Assembly: GCF_028618695.1 (NCBI RefSeq)
Contig: NZ_JAQIVI010000436.1
Span: forward strand, 1 to 8,545
Source: Natrinema soli
Lineage (GTDB): Archaea; Halobacteriota; Halobacteria; Halobacteriales; Natrialbaceae
Length of the DNA stretch: 8,545 nt
Direction: 5' to 3'
Of this stretch, positions 1 to 8,545 are shown one piece after another. The first letter of the stretch is position 1. Each line of letters opens with the position of its first letter. The notes under the pieces are model-generated. The model was not told where the DNA came from, made no database searches, and saw nothing but the letters and a program-made list of their open reading frames with translations. Position numbers and translations under genes: made by a program.

Positions 1-310
1 CGCGTTCCGCCGCGGCCGACAGCGCGAGCGCCGTCTTGCCACAGCCCGTCGGTCCGATCAGGTGGACCGGCTGGTCCGCCTCGAGCCAGCCGTCGATCCG
101 ATCGCGCAGCGATCTGACCGCGTCGGTCTCGACGAACGGTTCGGGGACGACCGTTTCGGGATCGGAGAGGGGGCTGTCGCCGTTTCGTTCGCCTGCGTTC
201 GATGCCGTTCGCGCGAGCTCTTTCTTCGCTCTGCGACCGTTCTTCTGCTCGCGGCTGGCCGTGATCTTCTTGCCACGGACCGTGCGCTTGCGCGAAGTGT
301 CGTCGGCCAT
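1..310 (-). CDS. gvpN: Gas vesicle protein GvpN, AAA-type ATPase, N-terminal part (truncated by window edge)
   Basis: Only the first 103 codons are present; the gene continues beyond position 1. The protein begins MADDTSRKRTVRGKKI. It has a basic, low-complexity N-terminal stretch of about 45 residues, then a P-loop, GPTGCGKT, at residues 86-93, preceded by a hydrophobic strand (VHLI). GvpN proteins are MoxR-like AAA ATPases that help vesicles enlarge but are not part of the minimal set needed to make them. The basic N-terminal extension with the KRTVRGKKI motif before the ATPase domain fits haloarchaeal GvpN. The ATG at 310 lies 6 bases after the gvpA stop codon, so the two are surely co-transcribed. 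There is no strong ribosome binding site; translation may be coupled to gvpA. gvpO would be expected next, outside the window. Identification rests on the P-loop, N-terminal style and position after gvpA. Confidence 0.93.
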   Translation of the reverse strand, partial: MADDTSRKRTVRGKKITASREQKNGRRAKKELARTASNAGERNGDSPLSDPETVVPEPFVETDAVRSLRDRIDGWLEADQPVHLIGPTGCGKTALALSAAAER

Positions 311-316
311 GGGGAG

Positions 317-595
317 TTATTCGGTCGATTTCGGCGACGACTCGGGGCGGGGTTCGACCTCGAGTTCCTCGAGTTCGTCGAGGTCGCCCTCCGCCGTGGC
401 CTGCTCAATTTTTGCGATCTCCTCCGCGTAGTGCAGGAAGGTGTCGACCGAGGCGACCACGACGCGGGCCTCGACCGTGAGCAATTCGATCCCGACGACC
501 GAGATGCGCGCCCAGACGTCGATGACGACGCCCTTGTCGAGGACGCGGTCGAGTACTTCTGCCAGACTCGAGGAATCGGGTGTTCGTTGGGACAT
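317..595 (-). CDS. gvpA: Gas vesicle major structural protein GvpA
   Basis: Ninety-two residues. The core, residues about 10-65, is the hallmark GvpA sequence: [20 protein letters not shown], then [20 protein letters not shown] and [18 protein letters not shown]. It has the helix-strand-strand-helix layout of the protein that polymerises into the ribbed, gas-permeable vesicle wall. I chose the ATG at 595 because MSQ...[17 protein letters not shown] matches the usual N-terminus. An in-frame start 14 codons upstream (637) would add a non-conserved segment that runs through the inverted repeat of the control region. No clear Shine-Dalgarno site precedes the ATG. After the conserved core there is an acidic tail of about 25 residues, making the protein longer than the roughly 76 residues of the Halobacterium protein. 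No gvpC separates it from gvpN. Family recognition is certain. Confidence 0.97.
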
Positions 596-627
596 AACAC
601 TTTTCGTTTGAGGGCCGTCTCGTAACA

Positions 628-652
628 CGACTTGCACTGCGACTGCAAGTCG
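628..652. promoter_or_regulatory. Perfect 9-base inverted repeat, candidate operator upstream of gvpA
   Basis: The left arm CGACTTGCA (628-636) and right arm TGCAAGTCG (644-652) are exact reverse complements separated by 7 bases. The repeat ends 33 bases before the gvpA ATG. If the TATA-like element at 654-660 (minus) is real, transcription would start near 631 and the repeat would lie across the core promoter between TATA and start, a classic repressor position. It does not resemble the GvpE activation half-sites known upstream of the BRE in other haloarchaea. It could instead form a hairpin in a longer leader RNA. The repeat is seen directly; its role is inferred. Confidence 0.55.
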
Positions 653-974: not shown

Positions 975-1598
975 ATGAATAACCGGTACGTCTACGGCGT
1001 CGTCGAGTCGGATACCATCGAGTTCGAGACTGACGCGGTCGCCGGTGCCGACCGCGTCTACACGATCTCACACCGGCGACTCGGTGCCGTCGTCTCGGAT
1101 ATCGACACGACCGATCCCGAGGAGACGGACGAGGACGCCCAGATCCACGACGACGTCCTCCGGGAGATCATGGAGTACGACGGCGGAACGACCGTCGTAC
1201 CCATGCAGTTCGGGATGGCCTTCGAGAGCGATCGAGCGCTGAAGAACGTCCTTCGCGGGGCGCGACCGGCGTTCCGACGCGCGATGAACGATATCGAGGG
1301 TAAAATCGAACTCGGGCTCAAACTCGTCCGCGAGGAAGACGCCGACGTCGATCGCGAGGAGATCGAGACGGCGGTCGCCGACCGCCTCGACCCCATCGCC
1401 GCACAGTCCGTCGAGAACGACCTGTTCAGCGACCGGCTCATCCTGAACCGCTCGTATCTCGTCGAGGAGGACGAGCGCGAGGCGTTCGACGATGCGATCG
1501 CCGACTTCGAGAACGACCACGACGAACTCATGGTCCAGTACACGGGGCCGTTCGCACCCTACAGCTTCGTCGACGTGAAAATCGGAGCCAAACAGTAA
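975..1598 (+). CDS. gvpF: Gas vesicle protein GvpF (GvpL/GvpF family)
   Basis: A 207-residue protein of the GvpL/GvpF family, close to the usual length for haloarchaeal GvpF. The N-terminus MNNRYVYGVVES, the block LGAVVSDIDTTDPEETDED near residues 36-54, TVVPMQFGMAF at 73-83, FSDRLILNRSYLV at 151-163 and GPFAPYSFV at 191-199 are all typical of haloarchaeal GvpF. GvpF is a minor wall-associated or assembly protein. In Halobacterium it is known to contact GvpA and other accessory proteins, and is thought to keep GvpA monomers from aggregating before assembly. It is the first gene of the plus-strand gvp operon; gvpG follows after 2 bases. It shares the family with gvpL at the other end of the operon, the two being ancient paralogues with different lengths. 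Confidence 0.97.
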   Translation: MNNRYVYGVVESDTIEFETDAVAGADRVYTISHRRLGAVVSDIDTTDPEETDEDAQIHDDVLREIMEYDGGTTVVPMQFGMAFESDRALKNVLRGARPAFRRAMNDIEGKIELGLKLVREEDADVDREEIETAVADRLDPIAAQSVENDLFSDRLILNRSYLVEEDEREAFDDAIADFENDHDELMVQYTGPFAPYSFVDVKIGAKQ

Positions 1599-1600
1599 CC

Positions 1601-1855
1601 ATGTTCATCCTCGACGACCTCCTGTTCCGGCCGTTCGTCGGCATCATCGACGCGCTCCACACGATCGCGCTCGACGAGATGTACGACGTGGAGGCCCTCG
1701 AGGCTGAACTCAAAGAGAACCAACTCTTGTACGAACTGGGCGAGCGCTCCGAGGCGGAGTATCGACGCCGCAAGGACGAACTCGAGGCGGAGCTCGAGAC
1801 CGCCCGCGAGGTTCACGAGCGGCTCTCGAGCGGCCGCGTGGAGGTGAAAAAATGA
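1601..1855 (+). CDS. gvpG: Gas vesicle protein GvpG
   Basis: An 84-residue protein, the usual GvpG length. The start MFILDDLLFRPFVGIIDALH, the block LDEMYDVEALEAELKENQLL and YELGERSEAEYRRRKDELEA are characteristic. The N-terminal third is hydrophobic and amphipathic; the rest is a charged helix likely to form a coiled coil, ending in a basic EVKK. GvpG is one of the accessory proteins required for vesicle formation in Halobacterium and is thought to act in the early assembly complex with GvpF and GvpL. It starts 2 bases after the gvpF stop and overlaps gvpH by ATGA. Translation of the next gene is helped by a perfect GGAGGTGA inside its last codons. Confidence 0.97.
   Translation: MFILDDLLFRPFVGIIDALHTIALDEMYDVEALEAELKENQLLYELGERSEAEYRRRKDELEAELETAREVHERLSSGRVEVKK
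1840..1847 (+). promoter_or_regulatory. Perfect Shine-Dalgarno GGAGGTGA for gvpH
   Basis: GGAGGTGA ends 4 bases before the gvpH ATG at 1852 and lies within the 3' end of gvpG. It fixes the gvpH start and shows that the ATGA overlap is a real coupled junction. Confidence 0.8.
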
Positions 1856-2466
1856 GCGACAGTTCCCCGAACGACGACCGCGACGAATCGCCCGACGACG
1901 ATCGATCCGACGAGCATCAGACCGACGAGAGTCAGACCGACGAGAGTCAGGTCGACGAGAGCGAACACTGGCTTTCGAGCCTGCTGTCCGCTCTCGAATC
2001 GCTCGACGACGGCCCGACGTCGCGTTCGGGCCGTCGGCGCGGCGATCGGACGACGTTCGATTACGATATTTCGATCCGATCCGGCGACGATCTCTCGGCG
2101 GACGACTCGCCGCTCGGTCAGAATCCGTTCGGCGACGAGAGAGGCGGTCGAGCCCGCGATCGATCGCGAAAGCGCCGCATCCGATCATCGGGTCCCTCGA
2201 GCGATCACCACGTGGCGACCCGGACGCACGAGGACGAACTACTCGTCACGGCGGACGTCGCCGGAGCCGATCCGGACGACATAACGGTGGGCTTCGACGA
2301 CTCGACGCTGGTCATCGGCGTCGACGAACGCGAAGTCGATCGCATCGAGATCCCCTGGCCCAAGACGGAGTCCCGGGCGACGATCAAGAACGGGGTGCTG
2401 ACCGTCCAGATCAGGCCGGAGACGACGGAGCGGACGGACACCGAAGAGACGGAGGGTACCGAATGA
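1852..2466 (+). CDS. gvpH: Gas vesicle protein GvpH, Hsp20-like
   Basis: A 204-residue protein. Residues about 1-40 are very acidic and contain three tandem five-residue repeats (QTDES, QTDES, QVDES, residues 23-37). A short hydrophobic helix, HWLSSLLSALESLDD, follows at 39-53, then an Arg-rich linker to about residue 115. Residues about 119-190 form a small heat-shock (Hsp20/alpha-crystallin) domain: ATRTHEDELLVTADVAGADP, the DDITVGFDDSTLVIGV strand pair, and RATIKNGVLTVQIRPE with an I-R-P tail. GvpH is an accessory, chaperone-like protein that is not essential for vesicle formation in Halobacterium. It sits between gvpG and the unrecognised 313-residue gene, with 4-base overlaps on both sides. 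The N-terminal half is poorly conserved in the family, so identification rests on the Hsp20 domain and gene order. Confidence 0.92.
   Translation: MSDSSPNDDRDESPDDDRSDEHQTDESQTDESQVDESEHWLSSLLSALESLDDGPTSRSGRRRGDRTTFDYDISIRSGDDLSADDSPLGQNPFGDERGGRARDRSRKRRIRSSGPSSDHHVATRTHEDELLVTADVAGADPDDITVGFDDSTLVIGVDEREVDRIEIPWPKTESRATIKNGVLTVQIRPETTERTDTEETEGTE
1918..1962 (+). repeat. Three tandem 15-base repeats inside gvpH
   Basis: CAGACCGACGAGAGT occurs exactly twice in a row (1918-1932, 1933-1947) and a third copy (1948-1962) differs at three positions. The repeats encode QTDES, QTDES and QVDES in the acidic N-terminal tail. The first two units being identical at DNA level suggests recent slippage or duplication. 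Confidence 0.85.
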
Positions 2467-3404
2467 GCGACGCCGAGTCCGAGGAGACGTTCGACGCGCT
2501 ACTCGAGGACGCGACGGAAAGTCTCCAACGACTCGAGGAGACGCTTGGCGAGAGCGAGGCGATAGACGAACTCGACGGCGACACCCTCGAGACGGTCGTC
2601 GGCGACCTCGACAACCTCGTGCGGGTCGCCGAGGAAGTCGGCGAGCTGCTCGAGGCGATGGACCTCAGCGACCTGCCGGAGGCGGTCGACGGGGACGAGC
2701 TCCTCAACGCCATCGAACTCGGCGAGATTCCCGACGTACTGGCGAACGAGGACGACGGCGTGAGCGAACTCGTCGACTTCACGGAGCTGTTCGACGCGAT
2801 CAACCTGTTGAACGCCTGGAACGCGGCGGATCTGACCGACCTCTGGGAGAATAAACGCGAACTCGACGACGCCCTCGACGAGCTCGAGGACGGCGACGAT
2901 GCCGGGATGGTCGAAGACGCCGTGTCGGACGTCGCCGACGACGACGATCAACTGATCGGCGATGACGACGATGATGGACAGCTGATCGGGGATGACGACG
3001 ACGACCTCATCGAGACGGACATGGATTCGACGACCGCGGCGAAGGAGGCGCTGGGCGATATCAACGTCGCGGAGGACCCGGAGGCGTACCAGGCGGCGAT
3101 CCAGCAGCAGGCGATGGAAGGCATCGACGCCTTCCGGACGGCGCTGCTCGAGACGCACGAGAAGTTCGAGAAGCTCTACGAGTTCAACCGCGAGAAGATG
3201 CGCCGGCAGGACACGAGTACGAACTCGCGAAATCCGACGGCGGCGTCGACGATTTCGACCGATCGACTGGACCTGGGCAGCGGGGCGCGCTACTCGACGG
3301 TGCCACAGGCGGTCAAACTCTCGACCGCACCGACGCGGAAACGGATCTACGGCCGCCGGTTCGAACTCGAGCGGGAACGACAACGGAGGACGAACAATGA
3401 GTGA
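2463..3404 (+). CDS. Unrecognised acidic protein in the gvpI position of the gas vesicle operon
   Basis: I do not recognise this 313-residue protein. It is certainly a gene: it overlaps gvpH by ATGA, has GGAGG at 2451-2455 seven bases before its ATG, and has haloarchaeal acidic composition. Residues 1-150 are predicted mostly helical and rich in Asp, Glu and Leu, with a Trp-containing segment AINLLNAWNAADLTDLWENK at 112-131. Residues 155-192 are an Asp-rich linker with two copies of QLIGDDDDD (173-181, 183-191). Residues 199-248 look like a long helix or coiled coil, ending in Lys/Arg. Residues 249-282 are Ser/Thr-rich and probably disordered. The last 30 residues are strongly basic, including STAPTRKRIYGRRFELERER. 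No signal peptide or membrane segment is visible. In Halobacterium this slot holds GvpI, a much smaller basic protein; whether the basic tail is a GvpI remnant is an open inference. A role in vesicle assembly or in regulating it is suggested only by position. Confidence 0.9.
   Translation: MSDAESEETFDALLEDATESLQRLEETLGESEAIDELDGDTLETVVGDLDNLVRVAEEVGELLEAMDLSDLPEAVDGDELLNAIELGEIPDVLANEDDGVSELVDFTELFDAINLLNAWNAADLTDLWENKRELDDALDELEDGDDAGMVEDAVSDVADDDDQLIGDDDDDGQLIGDDDDDLIETDMDSTTAAKEALGDINVAEDPEAYQAAIQQQAMEGIDAFRTALLETHEKFEKLYEFNREKMRRQDTSTNSRNPTAASTISTDRLDLGSGARYSTVPQAVKLSTAPTRKRIYGRRFELERERQRRTNNE
2936..3011 (+). repeat. Asp-codon repeat tract encoding two QLIGDDDDD units
   Basis: Runs of GAC/GAT codons flank two copies of a CA(A/G)CTGATCGG(C/G)GATGACGACGA-type unit, at about 2946-2968 and 2979-3000. 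They encode an Asp-rich linker in the 313-residue protein. The units are near-identical at DNA level, which points to duplication of one module. Confidence 0.75.
3385..3389 (+). promoter_or_regulatory. GGAGG ribosome binding site before the 3397 ATG
   Basis: GGAGG lies 7 bases before the ATG at 3397, which opens a 33-codon frame overlapping the stop of the 313-residue gene. It is as good as the sites used by confirmed gvp genes in this operon. Confidence 0.5.
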
Positions 3405-3498
3405 CTCACTACTGCGGCGACCGAACGGCTGTGAGGTGAGGACGACTGACTACGGCCCCGAACGGAGCGACGCCGGAGGTGAGTGCCGTGGTCGATGA
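3397..3498 (+). CDS. Possible 33-residue small protein or leader peptide between the gvpI-slot gene and gvpJ
   Basis: This short frame begins MSDSLLRRPNGCEVRTTDYG and ends ECRGR. It has a well-spaced GGAGG upstream, overlaps the preceding gene by 8 bases, and overlaps the gvpJ start at 3488 by 11 bases. It therefore bridges the only sizeable gap (83 bases) in an otherwise gapless operon, and ribosomes reading it would end on the gvpJ start. This suggests translational coupling or a small protein. Against it, the sequence is basic and contains two cysteines, unlike the neighbouring genes, and I recognise no family. It could be a decayed remnant of a former gene in this slot. Confidence 0.35.
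   Translation: MSDSLLRRPNGCEVRTTDYGPERSDAGGECRGR
3475..3482 (+). promoter_or_regulatory. Perfect Shine-Dalgarno GGAGGTGA deciding the gvpJ start
   Basis: GGAGGTGA ends 5 bases before the GTG at 3488. The upstream in-frame GTG at 3479 lies inside this site and so cannot be the start it serves. The choice of 3488 gives an N-terminus of similar length to known GvpJ. Confidence 0.75.
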
Positions 3499-4084
3499 GT
3501 TCCAGCCCAGTCGGCAGCAGGCCGACCTCGCCGAAGTCGTCGAGATGCTCCTGGATAAGGGGATCGTCATCAACGCCGACATCGCCGTCTCGATCGGCGA
3601 TACCCAGCTGCTCGGCGTGCAGGTCCGGGCCGCGATCGCCTCCTTCGAGACCGCGGCGAAGTACGGCCTCGAGTTCCCCGAGGGGACGGACATGCGCCGC
3701 GTCGCCGAGGCGGTCGACGACCCCGAACTCGCGGAGATGGACCGGCCGAATCCGGTGATCGATCCGACTCGAGGCGTCAACGTCACCGCCGACGAAGACG
3801 ACGGTGACGGCGAATCGAATGCCGACAGCGGCGACCGAAACGCGGACGGCGGCGAGTCGACCGAGAGCGACGTCGCCGCCAGCGACGAAGAGCTGGTGAG
3901 CGAACGCCTCGGGGCCAGACCGAACCCCGACAGACCGACCAGCGGTGGATTCGACCTGCTCAGCGACGACTCGACGGACGACGGCGAATCCGAAACGGAA
4001 TCGGCAGCCGACGGATCCGAAACTGACGGCTCCGAGGGCGATGAGGCCACCCCAGAAGCGGAGCCGGAGGGTGACGGATCATGA
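3488..4084 (+). CDS. gvpJ: Gas vesicle protein GvpJ (GvpA-like minor protein) with long acidic tail
   Basis: With the GTG start at 3488 the protein has 198 residues. The GvpA-family core at residues 12-66 reads [40 protein letters not shown] and [18 protein letters not shown]. The last two blocks are typical of GvpJ and distinguish it from GvpA. GvpJ is a minor, essential protein with the GvpA fold, thought to take part in nucleating or shaping the vesicle. The rest, residues 95-198, is an Asp/Glu/Ser/Gly-rich tail, almost certainly disordered, that contains [11 protein letters not shown] at 155-165. Halobacterium GvpJ is about 114 residues and also has a shorter acidic tail with a related PLSDDS motif, so the tail is expanded here. 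The gene overlaps gvpK by ATGA. Confidence 0.95.
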
Positions 4085-4425
4085 CGTCGATCGACGTCGG
4101 CGACGGCGAGGACGCGCGACAGGGGCTCGTCACCCTGGTCATCACCGTCGTCGAAATCCTGATCGACGCCCTCGAGCGCGAGGCGGTCCGCCGAATGGAG
4201 GGGGGAAACCTCTCGGACGAGGAGATCGAACGCCTCGGAAGCCAGCTCGCGACGATCGAGGCCGAAATCGAACAGCTCAAAGCCGACGAGGAGATCGAGG
4301 ACGGCGTCGACGATCTCCGGGGCGATCTGGACGGGCTGGTCAACGACGCGATCGAACAGCTTCACGGCGAGCCGACAGCTACGCAGAAACCGGGTTACTC
4401 CGTGTTCGGAGGTGAGGGCGAATGA
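4081..4425 (+). CDS. gvpK: Gas vesicle protein GvpK
   Basis: A 114-residue GvpK, near the family's usual length. The start [20 protein letters not shown], the segment [20 protein letters not shown] and [20 protein letters not shown] are typical, followed by a charged coiled-coil-like helix and a [15 protein letters not shown] block at about 80-94. GvpK is one of the accessory proteins essential for vesicle formation in Halobacterium; its exact step is not settled. GGAGGGTGA (4066-4074) in the end of gvpJ provides its ribosome binding site. It overlaps gvpJ and gvpL by ATGA. It ends in a Gly/Glu tail that is coded by the bases forming the gvpL ribosome binding site. Confidence 0.97.
4408..4415 (+). 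promoter_or_regulatory. Perfect Shine-Dalgarno GGAGGTGA for gvpL
   Basis: GGAGGTGA ends 6 bases before the gvpL ATG at 4422 and lies inside the gvpK coding sequence. It supports the 4422 start although the first 35 residues of GvpL are not conserved. Confidence 0.8.
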
Positions 4426-5390
4426 GCTCCGACGGCGCGAACGACGGTGACGGCGCTGCCGAGAAACTCGAGGCGCTCGACGAGCAGCCGGCCGGCGAGC
4501 ACGCCGAAACGCCGGAAATCGACGAAGGGCGCTACCTGTACTGTCTCGTTCGGGCCGACGAAGACGCCGCCCTCGAGACGACCGGCGTGGACGACGAACC
4601 GGTCTCGATCGTCGCGGAAAACGGAATCGGCGCCGTCGTCCACCCGTGCGACGGTCTCTACGACTCGGCGGACCTCGCACAGATCCGCCGCTGGCTCGTC
4701 CGTCACCAGACGGTCGTCGACGAGGCGGGGCAGGCCTTCGGAACGCCGATCCCGTTCCAGTTCGACACGATTCTGCGCGGCGACGACGCCGCCGTCCGCG
4801 AGTGGCTCCGCGAGGAGTCCGAAACCCTCGAGCGCGCCCTCTCCGGGCTGGCGGACCACTGGGAGTACCGCGTCGAAGTGGTCGAAGTCGATCCGATCAG
4901 CGACGAAGCGCTGATCGAGCGCGACGAACGGCTGCGCGAACTGGACGAGCAGATCGGCGGCTCCGGGGAGGGAACGGCCTTTCTGCTCGAGAAGCAGTTC
5001 GACCAGCGGCTGGCGGAACTCCGAGCCGCGCGACGGGAATCGCTGACCGCCGACCTCGAGGAGCGACTGGCCGCAAAAGCACGGGAAGTCCACGCGCTCG
5101 AGCGATCCCCGAGCGCGAAACTCTCGAACGAGATGGCCGACGGCGAGTCGGAAACGGGCGGGGACTCGAGCGACGGATCGGGCGAGTCAGACGACGGCGA
5201 AACCCTCTGTCGGCTCACGGTGCTGGCCCACGAGGACGACGAGGGAGCCATCGGCTCGATACTCGACGACGTGGCGGCGAACGATGGACTCGAGGTCAGG
5301 TTCACGGGACCGTGGCCGCCGTACACGTTCGCACCGGAACTCGGCGGTGGCGGAAACGCCGCGGACGAGCGGGCGAATCCACAGCCATGA
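4422..5390 (+). CDS. gvpL: Gas vesicle protein GvpL (GvpL/GvpF family)
   Basis: A 322-residue GvpL/GvpF-family protein, longer than the roughly 281 residues of Halobacterium GvpL. An acidic non-conserved leader covers residues 1-35. The family core starts at [13 protein letters not shown] (36-48) and includes GAVVHPC (70-76), [14 protein letters not shown] (107-120) and [11 protein letters not shown] (187-197). A long charged helical region follows at about 155-235, then an Asp/Ser/Gly/Glu linker (239-260), and the closing strand [13 protein letters not shown] plus [11 protein letters not shown] (293-303). GvpL is thought to be a hub that contacts most other accessory Gvp proteins in the assembly complex. 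The gene overlaps gvpK and gvpM by ATGA. The added length lies in the leader and the linker, which look disordered. Confidence 0.96.
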
Positions 5391-5710
5391 GACCTCGAAA
5401 GAACGACGATGCGCTCGTCGACGTGCTCGACGTGTTGCTCAGAGACGGTGCGATCCTCCGCGCGGACGTGATCGTCTCCGTCGCGGATATTCCGCTGGTC
5501 GGGATCAAGCTCACGGCGGCCATCGCCGGCATGGAGACGATGACGGAGTACGGCCTCTTCGAGGAGTGGGACGCCAGCCGCCGAACGGCAGCCGTCAGCC
5601 GACGCCAGTACGATCGGTCGGAACTCGACGAGGACCGCCCCGCGTTCGATGAACTCGATGTCGGTCGCTCACACGAGGACGCCGCGGACGGAGACGAATC
5701 GTCGAACTGA
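5387..5710 (+). CDS. gvpM: Gas vesicle protein GvpM (GvpA-like minor protein)
   Basis: A 107-residue protein starting [20 protein letters not shown]. The GvpA-family core covers residues 9-61 and includes ADVIVSVADIPLVGIKLTAA and IAGMETMTEYGLFEEWD, which are typical of GvpM. GvpM is a minor, essential, GvpA-like protein that aggregates easily on its own and is held by GvpF, G, H, J, K or L. The last 45 residues are a charged tail, making it longer than the roughly 84 residues in Halobacterium. The ATG overlaps the gvpL stop as ATGA with no clear Shine-Dalgarno site, so translation probably depends on coupling to gvpL. This is the last gene of the operon. Confidence 0.96.
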   Translation: MRPRKNDDALVDVLDVLLRDGAILRADVIVSVADIPLVGIKLTAAIAGMETMTEYGLFEEWDASRRTAAVSRRQYDRSELDEDRPAFDELDVGRSHEDAADGDESSN

Positions 5711-5879: not shown

Positions 5880-6095
5880 TCAGGCGTACTTCGGGCGTTC
5901 GGTCGTGTGATCGACCTCGCCGGTGACGGTCTCCTCGTCGCTATCGTCGTCGTAGACGTACTGGCCGGTCGCCCCACACAGGGTGCACTCGTACGTCTCG
6001 GAGATCTCGTTTATCATCTCGCCATCCTCGAAGTAGACGCGACTCTGCGTGATCTGCAGGAACTGGGCGGTCTCGCAGTTAGTGCAGGTGATCAT
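5880..6095 (-). CDS. Small zinc-finger (zinc ribbon) protein
   Basis: A 71-residue protein beginning MITCTNCETAQFLQITQSRV. Two CxxC knuckles, C4-x2-C7 and C37-x2-C40, are about 29 residues apart and would bind one zinc ion in a ribbon. The middle is a short beta-rich segment with an acidic helix (EDGEMINEISETYE). The tail from residue 48 is acidic and probably flexible (YDDDSDEETVTGE). Haloarchaea encode many such one-domain zinc-finger proteins of 40-80 residues, few of which have known functions; some affect biofilm, motility or stress responses. It is convergent to gvpM and separated from the gene upstream by a 368-base spacer, so it is likely monocistronic. No link to gas vesicles can be read from the sequence. 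Confidence 0.88.
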   Translation of the reverse strand: MITCTNCETAQFLQITQSRVYFEDGEMINEISETYECTLCGATGQYVYDDDSDEETVTGEVDHTTERPKYA

Positions 6096-6120
6096 ACTCG
6101 TTCGATGGCCAGCACCAGAT

Positions 6121-6147
6121 GTAGTTATCCGGCTTGTAACCGAAAGG
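6121..6147 (-). promoter_or_regulatory. Candidate promoter of the zinc-finger gene
   Basis: Two AT-rich elements stand out from GC-rich surroundings on the minus strand: GATAACTA at 6129-6122 and TTTCGGTTACAAG at 6147-6135. Their distances from the ATG at 6095 fit a leaderless or short-leader archaeal transcript. Confidence 0.35.
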
Positions 6148-6303
6148 CAAAGACGACTATGAGGGTCTTACCCGCCGACCGCCATCGAACGGGGATCCGG
6201 GCGACTCGCCCCGTCGCTCGCGGCCGATCGAGCGCGAGTAACTGTTTCGTACCCCGGGACGGAGGCGGGATTGTCTCGATGGCTCGACGACGAGAATACC
6301 GGC

Positions 6304-6318
6304 GAAAAGACGCTTTTC
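6304..6318. repeat. Perfect inverted repeat GAAAAG-3-CTTTTC
   Basis: Arms at 6304-6309 and 6313-6318 with a 3-base centre. It lies 146 bases past the stop of the oxidoreductase gene on the minus strand and about 210 bases before the zinc-finger gene. The T-rich arm could serve archaeal transcription termination; an operator is the alternative. Confidence 0.4.
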
Positions 6319-6463
6319 CAGCCGTAACGAGACGGTTATCGTCCCACTTATTGGCGTGAAACCGAACGAAAACGGCCAGTGCCGAAAAACGATTCGAGGC
6401 CGAGGGAAGCGCGACCGATTTGCGCCGACGGCCGCACCGATCGATGGGGTGGCGGAGCGACGA

Positions 6464-7471
6464 TCATCGGTCGACGGAGACTCGATCACCGGTTCGAGCC
6501 GCCTCGTAAGCCGCCTCGGTCAGCGCCGTCACCCGAAGCGCGTCCCGGACCGTCGCCGGCGGCTCGGTTCCGTTTCTGACGCTCTCGAGGAACGCGTCGG
6601 CCCGGGTCCGTTCGTCGCGAGGATCGATGTAGGGAACGTGCTCCCCGGCGTCGGAATCGATTTCGACGACTTCCCGGGACCCCCACTGCGTTCCCTCGAG
6701 GTAGATCGCGCCCTCCTCGTCCCAGAGGTGGACGTGTTCGCGGACCGACGGCGCGTCGCCGTGAAACGAAAACGTGCCGGTCGCACCGTTTTCGAACCGA
6801 ACGTCGAGGTGAGCGCGGCGGTCGACTCGCCGCTCGTCGTCGTGGAACGCCATGCTCGCGGCGACGGACGCCGGCTCGAGGCCGGTCGTCCAGCAGACGG
6901 CGTCGAGGACGTGGCTGCCGGTATCGTAGAGAAAACCGCCCCCGGACAGGTCGGGATCAAGCCGCCAGGTCCCCCGCGAGTCGTCGATCCACCCCTGCGT
7001 GATGGAGGCGGTCAGCCACTCCGGCTCGTGCTCGGCGAACCGGGCGCGCGCCGTTCGAAACGCCGTCTGGAGGTGGCGCTGGTAGCCGACCATCACGGTC
7101 CGATCGCTTCGCTCGACCCGATCTACGAGGGCGCGGGCCCGCTCGAGGTCGGTCGTCAGCGGTTTGTCGCAGTAGACGTGGCAGCCCCGCTCGAGGGCGG
7201 CGACGACTTGCTCGTAGTGGAGGGTGTGCGGCGTCCCGACGAGCACTGCGTCAAGAGACGCCTCGGCGAGCATCGCCTCGTACTCGGCGTACTGCCGATC
7301 CGCGGACACGCCGAACCCGCGGCCACCCTCGTCGCGGAGCGCCGCGTCGAGATCGCAGACCGCGCGGACGGTCGCGTCCGGGTGACGGTGAAGCTGCCCA
7401 CCGACGGTGGTTCCGATGTACCCCAGCCCGACGATACCGATCCGAATCGGCCGCGATCCGTCGTTACTCAT
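6464..7471 (-). CDS. Gfo/Idh/MocA-family NAD(P)-dependent oxidoreductase
   Basis: With the ATG at 7471 the protein has 335 residues (MSNDGSRPIRIGIVGLGYIG), the family's usual length. The in-frame start 18 codons upstream would add a segment without family similarity. Residues 9-125 form a Rossmann domain: the dinucleotide-binding GLGYIG at 15-20, an acidic D40 after the second strand, and CDKPLTTD at 101-108 with K103 the expected catalytic lysine of the EKP motif (here DKP). The C-terminal alpha/beta domain contains GGGFLYDTGSHVLDAV (177-192), where D183 and H187 fit the family's catalytic Asp and His. Such enzymes oxidise or reduce sugars, inositols and related polyols; the substrate cannot be told here. 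GAGGT at 7479-7475 (minus) may serve as ribosome binding site. It lies downstream of, but 545 bases from, the alcohol dehydrogenase, so it probably has its own promoter. Confidence 0.93.
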   Translation of the reverse strand: MSNDGSRPIRIGIVGLGYIGTTVGGQLHRHPDATVRAVCDLDAALRDEGGRGFGVSADRQYAEYEAMLAEASLDAVLVGTPHTLHYEQVVAALERGCHVYCDKPLTTDLERARALVDRVERSDRTVMVGYQRHLQTAFRTARARFAEHEPEWLTASITQGWIDDSRGTWRLDPDLSGGGFLYDTGSHVLDAVCWTTGLEPASVAASMAFHDDERRVDRRAHLDVRFENGATGTFSFHGDAPSVREHVHLWDEEGAIYLEGTQWGSREVVEIDSDAGEHVPYIDPRDERTRADAFLESVRNGTEPPATVRDALRVTALTEAAYEAARTGDRVSVDR

Positions 7472-7662
7472 ACGACCTCGAACGGGTTGCAGCCCCATCC
7501 TTCTGGAGGCGTCGCAAGCAAGCATCTCCCGCTCGTCGACCAGTTGGGACCGATCTCGAGACGGTCAGCTACTCGAGTTCGTCCGTTCGTCCACGCGAGT
7601 CGTTCCGCTCGTTTCGTCAGCGCGAGAGAGTAACAACAGCCGGGGTGTCCCGAGTACCGACC

Positions 7663-7677
7663 GGTAGCAGGGTGCTA
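7663..7677. repeat. Perfect inverted repeat GTAGCA-3-TGCTAC
   Basis: Arms at 7663-7668 and 7672-7677 around GGG. It is about 190 bases upstream of the oxidoreductase start and could be a regulatory site or a hairpin in RNA. Confidence 0.5.
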
Positions 7678-7771
7678 CGATCGGAGTAGACGGTGCCTGC
7701 GTTCGGTTCGGAGTCGCTACCGGTGGCCAAGCGGCTGCATAACAATGGGTAACACGCGCAACGTCCGATCT

Positions 7772-7791
7772 GCGGGGTTGCAACTCCCCGC
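7772..7791. repeat. Perfect inverted repeat GCGGGG-8-CCCCGC
   Basis: Arms at 7772-7777 and 7786-7791; the 8-base loop TTGCAACT contains the palindrome TTGCAA. It forms a stable hairpin on either strand. Confidence 0.5.
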
Positions 7792-7906
7792 CGGGTATGC
7801 GCTCGGCCCATCTGTGCGCTGACCAGCCGATTGCGTGCGTTCGTGCCCGGATCGCTCGGACGTGGACTCGCCCCCGCTTCGAGTACGCTCATGTCTCTCA
7901 CGCCCA

Positions 7907-7974
7907 GGGCGGTTCCCGCCCGCCCGGGTTTCACGGTATGCAAACCCGACAGCCCCAGCTCTCGGGGGGAGAGC
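7907..7974. repeat. Three tandem perfect stem-loops
   Basis: Hairpin 1 is GGGCGG (7907-7912), loop TTC, CCGCCC (7916-7921). Hairpin 2 is CGGGTTT (7925-7931), 10-base loop, AAACCCG (7942-7948). Hairpin 3 is GCTCTC (7958-7963), loop GGGGG, GAGAGC (7969-7974). They are separated by 3 and 9 bases. Three perfect stems in 68 bases outside any gene suggest a folded RNA or the structured end of a mobile element. The region lies 43 bases after the alcohol dehydrogenase stop, so a 3' processing or termination role is also possible. Confidence 0.55.
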
Positions 7975-8016
7975 CCAGTAGTGACAACCGACCGGGACGG
8001 CGATCCCAGTTCGCGC

Positions 8017-8545
8017 TCAGAACTCCGTGATGACCGGAATGCCGACCGTTCCGTAGTCGTCCATCGAGGCGAGCGTCTCGGGAGCCTCCTCGAGCGACAG
8101 CGTCTCGCCGATGATCTTGTCGGGCTCGAGGGTTCCCTGTGCGATCAGGTTGAACAGTTCCTCGTAGCGGACCAGCGGCATCCCGAAGGAGCCGTGGAAG
8201 TCGATCTCCTGCATCGTCATGATGTCGACGGGGAGTTCGATCTGGCCCTCCTCCTCGCCGGTCGTCAGTCCGACCTGCACGTGGCTGCCCCGCGTGCCGA
8301 GGCTGTTGACCGAGTTCTTGCAGGTATCGGCGACGCCCAGTGCGTCGATCGAGACGTCGGCACCGCCCCCGGTGATAGCCTGGACCGCCTGGGCCGAACT
8401 GTCGACCTCCGTCACGTTGACCGTCTCCCGGGCACCGAGTTCCTCGGCGCGCTCGAGTTTGTCGTCGACGAGGTCGATCGCGATCGGGTGAGCACCCAGC
8501 GCGTCCGCGATGTGGATCGCCGAGAGGCCGACGCCGCCGCAGCCG
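8017..8545 (-). CDS. Zinc-type alcohol dehydrogenase (MDR superfamily), C-terminal part, truncated by window edge
   Basis: The last 175 residues are present; the start lies beyond 8545. The visible part opens in the Rossmann coenzyme-binding domain with GCGGVGLSAIHIADALGA, which matches the GxGxxG fingerprint of medium-chain dehydrogenases. It is followed by an acidic residue after the next strand (IAIDLVDDKLERAEELGA), then GGGADVSIDALG and RGSHVQVGL, all usual for the family. The closing block TLASMDDYGTVGIPVITEF completes the C-terminal return to the catalytic domain. The catalytic zinc ligands lie in the missing N-terminal part, so zinc dependence is inferred from family. Reaction: NAD(P)-dependent oxidation of an alcohol or reduction of an aldehyde; the substrate is unknown. 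A GTG at 8415 is internal, not the start, because the frame and homology continue upstream to the window edge. Confidence 0.9.
   Translation of the reverse strand, partial: GCGGVGLSAIHIADALGAHPIAIDLVDDKLERAEELGARETVNVTEVDSSAQAVQAITGGGADVSIDALGVADTCKNSVNSLGTRGSHVQVGLTTGEEEGQIELPVDIMTMQEIDFHGSFGMPLVRYEELFNLIAQGTLEPDKIIGETLSLEEAPETLASMDDYGTVGIPVITEF

Follow-up and report, generated by a model that had tools for sequence, protein, structure and literature searches.

The gas vesicle cluster of Halobacterium salinarum carries gvpI between gvpH and gvpJ, and its product has been described as a small, very basic protein (~16 kDa, pI 10.8). In the window analyzed here, the whole 8,545-nucleotide stretch of Natrinema soli DNA, the same slot holds a gene for a protein of 313 aa with a pI of ~4.05 and a net charge of −65, which raises the question of what this protein is and what it may do in vesicle assembly. 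An initial annotation had placed it in the operon as a large acidic protein of unknown family, possibly an acidic domain fused to a GvpI-like tail.

A coding gene within the gas vesicle operon

The open reading frame between gvpH and gvpJ (Table 1) is a real gene within the gvp operon. Its ATG overlaps the gvpH stop codon (ATGA, 2463-2466), and a ribosome-binding-like site lies upstream of the start. The GC content by codon position (0.71/0.36/0.86) is like that of the neighboring genes; a 294-aa ORF on the opposite strand shows the reversed order (0.85/0.35/0.73) and is consistent with a shadow of the coding strand. The dN/dS ratios against four relatives (0.16, 0.22, 0.22 and 0.33) indicate purifying selection. 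On both sides, Pfam and NCBIfam recognize gvpA, F, G, H (as Hsp20), J, K and L, and phmmer recognizes gvpN and gvpM, in agreement with the operon membership proposed initially. The gap between gvpA and gvpN is 6 nt and therefore leaves no room for gvpC between them.

A protein search (7996 candidates scored) returned 277 proteins at E ≤ 0.001, query included; among the best 120 of the 277, the readable names are those of haloarchaeal "hypothetical" or "uncharacterized" proteins, mostly from Natrialbaceae. The minus strand of the window from 5880 to 8545 contains a small Cys-containing ORF (5880-6095), an oxidoreductase-like ORF (6464-7525) and a dehydrogenase-like ORF (8017 to the end). On a Natrinema thermotolerans plasmid, a hypothetical protein, a Gfo/Idh/MocA oxidoreductase and an alcohol dehydrogenase are annotated in the same order after gvpM.

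Table 1. Positions of the gvp genes in the window and of the segments of the long GvpI.
Feature	Position	Strand	Basis
gvpN, truncated by window start	2..310	-	phmmer
gvpA	317..637	-	Pfam, NCBIfam; 6 nt from gvpN
gvpF	975..1598	+	PF06386
gvpG	1601..1855	+	PF05120, NF045779
gvpH (Hsp20 family)	1852..2466	+	PF00011; phmmer to GvpH
Ribosome-binding-like site GGAGG	2451..2455	+	Read from sequence
gvpI, long acidic form, 313 aa	2463..3404	+	ORF; GvpI homology; position between gvpH and gvpJ
N-terminal extension, residues 1-208, net −71	2463..3086	+	Unaligned to short GvpI; charge
Asp-rich linker, residues 143-205, repeated D(n)-QLIG units	2889..3077	+	Charge; DNA repeat family D1; low pLDDT 159-188
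Core helix, residues 206-249, aligned to short GvpI basic helix	3078..3209	+	Profile alignment, AlphaFold2
GvpI tail signature, residues 257-300: NPTAAST, STVP, KLSTAP, RIYGRRF	3231..3362	+	Alignment, Halobacterium GvpI comparison
gvpJ with acidic C-terminal tail	3479..4084	+	NF046090
gvpK	4081..4425	+	PF05121
gvpL	4422..5390	+	NF045778
gvpM	5387..5710	+	phmmer; start read from sequence

The C-terminal third is homologous to GvpI

By BLASTP, residues 208-301 of the window protein align with residues 13-114 of Halobacterium GvpI (31% identity over 104 columns, E = 2e-7), and a long form from Haladaptatus matches the same protein at E = 2e-10. When profiles of 16 long and 16 short forms were compared with each other, positions 214-303 of the long profile fell on approximately 17-112 of the short one (98.5%, E = 2.2e-15), and a second pair of profiles, built from the survey loci described below, gives 99.2% (E = 2.7e-19). 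The homologous part, residues ~209-303, comprises a long helix, a disordered STxP segment and an RIYGxRF helix. We conclude that the gene is almost certainly gvpI, extended at the N terminus of its product by a large acidic domain, and not a new family. The label "unknown family" does not hold, while the suggestion of an acidic domain fused to a GvpI-like tail holds, the GvpI part also taking in the coiled-coil-like helix. In no case did an annotated GvpI align over the full length of the protein. Since homology and gene position both hold, the latter in the window and in most survey loci, we regard small size and strong basicity as characterizing the short type rather than the family as a whole.

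Halobacterium salinarum GvpI (WP_010890525.1, pNRC100, 144 aa) has in common with the window protein the core helix, the NPxAxST/STVP/RxYGxR tail, the slot between gvpH and gvpJ and the ATGA overlap with gvpH. It differs in being without the 208-residue extension, in its strongly basic helix (22 K+R in the first 53 residues) and in a cluster that has gvpC, D and E, unlike the window type. With haloarchaeal GvpC the sole likeness is a complementary distribution, long GvpI occurring where gvpC is absent. GvpC has PF05465 repeats and is encoded by a separate gene adjoining gvpA, whereas the window GvpI has no Pfam match and profile comparison with GvpC gives 0.2% for the extension and 7.6% for the core.

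The window GvpI has no family match in Pfam, NCBIfam or PHROGs. The absence of a Pfam or NCBIfam match means little, because Halobacterium GvpI has none either. A Pfam FlgN match to the window protein (E = 0.97, far below the cut-off) and weak Pfam matches of its relatives (e.g., CENP-Q, Leptin), also below the cut-offs, were dropped, and a PDB profile match to the LIM-domain protein 9e5c (E = 6e-13, profile positions 23-135) was read as probably compositional, reflecting an acidic, helical sequence. Residues 1-208 have no counterpart in short GvpI and match no family searched. A search with residues 1-142 alone returned one 100-aa protein (E = 6e-28) from 303 scored candidates of 78-248 aa sharing short words, so that there is no stand-alone extension family among those 303 candidates. 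Compared with GvpC and 12 other Gvp profiles, the extension gave a best value of 4.2% (GvpK), none of them credible.

Domain architecture and charge

The initial annotation had described an acidic helical N-terminal half, an Asp linker, a coiled-coil-like helix and a basic tail, and the net charges of the segments agree with this layout: −44 for residues 1-142, −26 for the Asp-rich linker (143-205), −2 for residues 206-252 and +7 for residues 253-313. The charges on which the initially suggested bipolar scaffold would rest are thus present. The AlphaFold2 model of the window GvpI has helices within residues 4-157, a single helix at 206-249 and a helix at 298-312, with low confidence at 159-188 and between the last two helices (mean pLDDT 66, pTM 0.29). 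The extension helices reach a pLDDT near 90 within the first 50 residues. In the model of short GvpI a helix at 3-56 is followed by a mostly low-confidence region and a helix at 104-119 (pTM 0.33). Because overall confidence is low in both models, local helices alone were used; the two have in common the order helix, disorder, C-terminal helix. In alignment A4, conserved positions of the extension lie outside the linker (e.g., L52, D67, A83, P90, W119 and E133), and the length of the linker varies.

Survey of gvpI in haloarchaeal genomes

GvpL served as the anchor of the survey, and its constant presence is therefore by design. A named genome collection contained 67 long-form loci, from Natrialbaceae, Haladaptatus, Halegenticoccus, Haloprofundus, Halogeometricum pallidum, Halococcus, Halogranum, Halocatena and other Halobacteriales; phmmer with the Halobacterium protein found gvpC in none of these 67. 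In 391 Halobacteria genomes taken from a larger group, 162 match GvpL (161 above the cut-off) and 162 match the long GvpI profile, with 160 common to both. Of the 161 genomes whose GvpL match exceeds the cut-off, 160 also match the GvpI profile; the exception is G207, where the contig is 6.9 kb. GvpL alone is matched in G207 and G238 (the latter below the cut-off), and the GvpI profile alone in G166 and G368 (E ~5e-4), which have no gas vesicle protein family match. Short forms also match the long GvpI profile, at 2e-16 to 6e-11.

We examined 149 GvpL stretches from 148 genomes (148 matches plus one plasmid cluster of G001). gvpI is present in 147 of them and absent from L196, the 6.9 kb contig, and from L224. 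In most loci gvpI follows gvpH or gvpG and precedes gvpJ; in three (L072, L073 and L192) it is located on the gvpA/gvpO side of the cluster. Fifteen rows failed a strict tail pattern; 14 of these were read by eye, and the last is the leading fragment of the gvpI gene that is broken in L108. Another 13 genomes have GvpL above the cut-off but lie outside the fetched loci. One of these, G240, was fetched later; the remaining 12 all reach E = 3.4e-30 or better against the long GvpI profile, and none is in the gvpC list. Two partial plasmid clusters were observed: L224 (G001, Natrinema zhouii) has gvpJKLM only, and L007 (Natronococcus occultus) has J-, K-, L- and J/M-like genes with no gvpI recognized.

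Two types of GvpI and the presence of gvpC

gvpC was called by profile in 13 of the 149 loci, and in L183 by Pfam repeats, on the same contig just outside the stretch. All gvpC-bearing loci with gvpI (13/13) encode a short form of 113-144 aa at the chosen starts, and all gvpC-less loci with gvpI (134/134) encode a long form, with a median of 308.5 aa and a minimum of 192 (L188) in a range that excludes L108, whose gene is in two pieces. Long GvpI and gvpC are thus mutually exclusive in 147 of 147 loci with gvpI. The absence of gvpC rests on gene spacing as well as on the profile result: the distance from gvpA to the next gvpN or gvpO is ≤172 nt in 129 gvpC-less loci (window included) and ≥938 nt in 12 gvpC-bearing loci, as measured in all but 9 of 150 loci, five of the nine being gvpC-less loci where a search for gvpA gave nothing. 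The long form occurs in most of the salt-loving archaea surveyed and only in gvpC-less clusters.

At the genome level, gvpC is seen in 15 of the 161 genomes with GvpL above the cut-off, 14 of them recognized by Pfam repeats and one by the position of the gene together with a weak profile match; in the other 146 no gvpC was found. The one genome identified by position, G240 (L240:8285-8638 and 10684-11934), has a very divergent short GvpI, in a frame of 117 residues, and a gene in the gvpC position with a weak GvpC profile match (63 bits) that the Pfam repeat model misses. Single-repeat Pfam GvpC matches in G129, G158 and G237 (E = 4e-4 to 7e-4) were set aside because G129 is without GvpL and the other two matches lie away from the GvpL locus.

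A GvpL tree was built from 100 GvpL rows (14 gvpC-bearing loci and L001, the window, every fifth of L076-L138, and later gvpC-less loci) and 12 GvpF rows. The long type forms one clade (SH-aLRT 96), and a single change of type is needed, which indicates a single ancient divergence of cluster types, passed on as a whole, rather than a correlation that arose several times; repeated joint change of gvpC and GvpI type is unsupported. A quick tree rooted with GvpF had the short rows basal, and a tree in which the short rows were held together was better (p-AU 0.82), so we claim no direction of change. Both types are present in Halogeometricum (Halogeometricum borinquense short, Halogeometricum pallidum long).

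Charge differences, partners and a possible mechanism

The two types differ in charge within the homologous part itself. A 45-residue helix segment has a median net charge of +10 in 13 short GvpI (L001 included, L209 not), versus a median of −1 (range −7 to +6) for the aligned segment in 135 long GvpI. Whole-protein pI is ~4.05 (median) in long GvpI versus 10.5 (range 9.5-11.9) in short; one outlier of 7.26 (L197) has an uncertain start, and L209 and the first piece of L108 failed the anchor pattern. In gvpC-less clusters GvpJ ends in an acidic C-terminal tail (median 57 aa, net −19), which is missing from GvpJ of most gvpC-bearing clusters. The basic N-terminal 53 residues of GvpI have been proposed, in a part of PMC7688916, to bind and connect acidic Gvps. 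As the helix of the long type is approximately neutral, the proposed basic bridging property is not common to it, and without the strong positive charge of short GvpI its binding may have changed.

Excerpts of PMC7688916 and PMC9501494 report split-GFP partners of short GvpI (H strongest, then C and L, then F and O) and very long vesicles upon its deletion. Of the 148 gvpI-bearing loci, now counting the window, 14 yielded no gvpH, and each of these 14 is of the long type. The distance from gvpG to the gvpI start is −4 to 172 nt in 13 cases, which are clean; the remaining one, L216, is ambiguous, since the H profile also matches its long ORF. The GvpI tail is kept in the gvpH-less loci displayed (L167, L169, L184, L195 and L204), so GvpH is hardly its sole partner, and GvpL, itself the survey anchor, would be a better candidate. 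For the same reason, the idea that the STxP repeats solely fill a groove of GvpH is disfavored. By analogy, the long core may keep the partners of short GvpI.

We suggest that long GvpI is most likely a minor accessory assembly factor. The core (~209-313) would dock on a platform of GvpL and GvpF, and additionally on GvpH in clusters that have it, and would help to restrict how long vesicles grow, as does short GvpI in Halobacterium. The acidic helical domain (1-142), tethered by the flexible Asp-rich linker (143-205), would offer a further, acidic surface for contacts in clusters with neither GvpC nor a strongly basic GvpI helix. Docking and length control, drawn by analogy with the short form, seem to us plausible but somewhat short of an even chance. 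The statement as a whole, a gvpI of the gvpC-less type encoding an accessory factor with a docking core and an acidic second surface, we hold to be evenly balanced. Some family members may do something else, given the stand-alone copies described below.

Alternative explanations

If an unrelated new protein had displaced gvpI, the tail resemblance would be convergent. The lack of a database family and the 31% identity to Halobacterium GvpI fit this, but the collinear helix, the NPxAxST, STVP, KxS and RxYGxR motifs, the profile match (E = 2e-15) and the shared slot do not, and Halobacterium GvpI is likewise without a Pfam or NCBIfam match; displacement is close to refuted. It is also improbable that the extension is a mere solubility or salt-adaptation tag, turning a basic protein acidic with no specific partner. 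Such a tag would account for the shift in pI between the types and for the varied linker length, but not for the conserved positions outside the linker or the confidently modeled helices in the first 50 residues, and short forms manage without an extension.

Two further readings bear on the gvpC-less clusters as such. In one, the extension replaces GvpC: long GvpI would lie along the vesicle wall and set its shape or strength, making gvpC dispensable. The distribution allows this, in the mutual exclusion across 147 loci and the tight gvpA spacing, and so do the split-GFP binding of short GvpI to GvpC (reported in part of PMC9501494) and the position of gvpI on the gvpA/gvpO side in three loci. 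With one switch on the tree, however, the exclusion may reflect hitchhiking. The sequence comparisons lend the replacement no support: the profile values with GvpC are those given above (the core over 20 columns), and a lone weak Pfam GvpC-repeat match (E = 0.46, below the cut-off) falls in the core helix of a Halocatena protein and not in the extension. Moreover, the gene is mostly in the gvpF-M operon, which according to a section of PMC4390858 yields far less protein than gvpA/gvpC in Halobacterium. We regard replacement of GvpC as a bold possibility, and a quite unlikely one. In the other, gvpC-less clusters, with their long gvpI, make no vesicles under normal conditions or serve another GvpA assembly. 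Passages of PMC4390858 call five species with gvpC-less clusters Vac-negative, and excerpts of the open-licence literature describe no vesicles made by a cluster of this kind; yet PMC4390858, in the same passages, counts the same 11 gvp genes as sufficient, and the dN/dS values together with retention in 160 of 161 GvpL genomes suggest that some function is being maintained. This reading appears unlikely, and an accessory assembly factor remains our preferred reading of long GvpI.

Relation to earlier work

An N-terminal extension of GvpI had already been reported in one sentence of the Natrialba magadii genome paper (2012). By that description the protein is likewise a long form and its cluster lacks gvpC, D and E; no difference from the window protein is apparent. 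Clusters without gvpC are listed in parts of PMC4390858 and PMC9501494. Excerpts of the open-licence literature contain neither a statement that links the type of GvpI with gvpC nor an experiment on any long GvpI; the split into two types, with its details of charge and gene loss, is new in this analysis.

The GvpI experiments in these excerpts use Halobacterium proteins, and the proposal that GvpI links acidic Gvps (PMC7688916, in part) was built on the rarer short type. GvpI of gvpC-less clusters is acidic overall with an approximately neutral core helix, so either charge bridging is not a general GvpI mechanism or the two types work differently. Haloarchaeal clusters may, in a broader and doubtful reading, represent two assembly systems: a majority without GvpC, in which GvpI with its acidic domain would take over the control of wall shape or strength from GvpC or would help to build a different assembly of GvpA, and a minority with GvpC and basic GvpI, the system used in those experiments. 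GvpC-free clusters are candidate material for gas vesicle engineering, and the GvpI homology names many proteins now called hypothetical.

Stand-alone copies and other observations

The initial annotation had raised the question of whether this family occurs mostly outside gvp clusters. Nearly all GvpL loci hold gvpI, as described above, but stand-alone GvpI-like genes with extension and tail were found away from gvp genes in 6 of 10 genomes, which had been picked for extra or weak matches, so that 6/10 is no frequency. The family thus belongs mainly to gvp clusters and is also present off-cluster, and some members may have another role. The stand-alone loci are L235, L236, L237, L238 and L239 (G202, G061, G157, G048 and G217, respectively) and L068 (Halogranum amylolyticum). 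Around them, no other gvp gene was recognized in stretches of 9-17 kb, save a weak GvpE-like match in L236, and their neighbors looked unrelated between genomes.

Two gvp-linked hypothetical proteins, L003:5620-6036 (Halocatena) and L005:4189-4806 (Haladaptatus), are named by neither Pfam nor NCBIfam and have in common, by eye, a glycine-rich VGRxLGxxxG segment and a similar C-terminal helix. The gvpI of Natronococcus amylolyticus (L053 and L108) is broken at a stretch reading MCIRDR, MYKRQ, which we take to resemble sequencing adapter, so that the break is probably an assembly fault.
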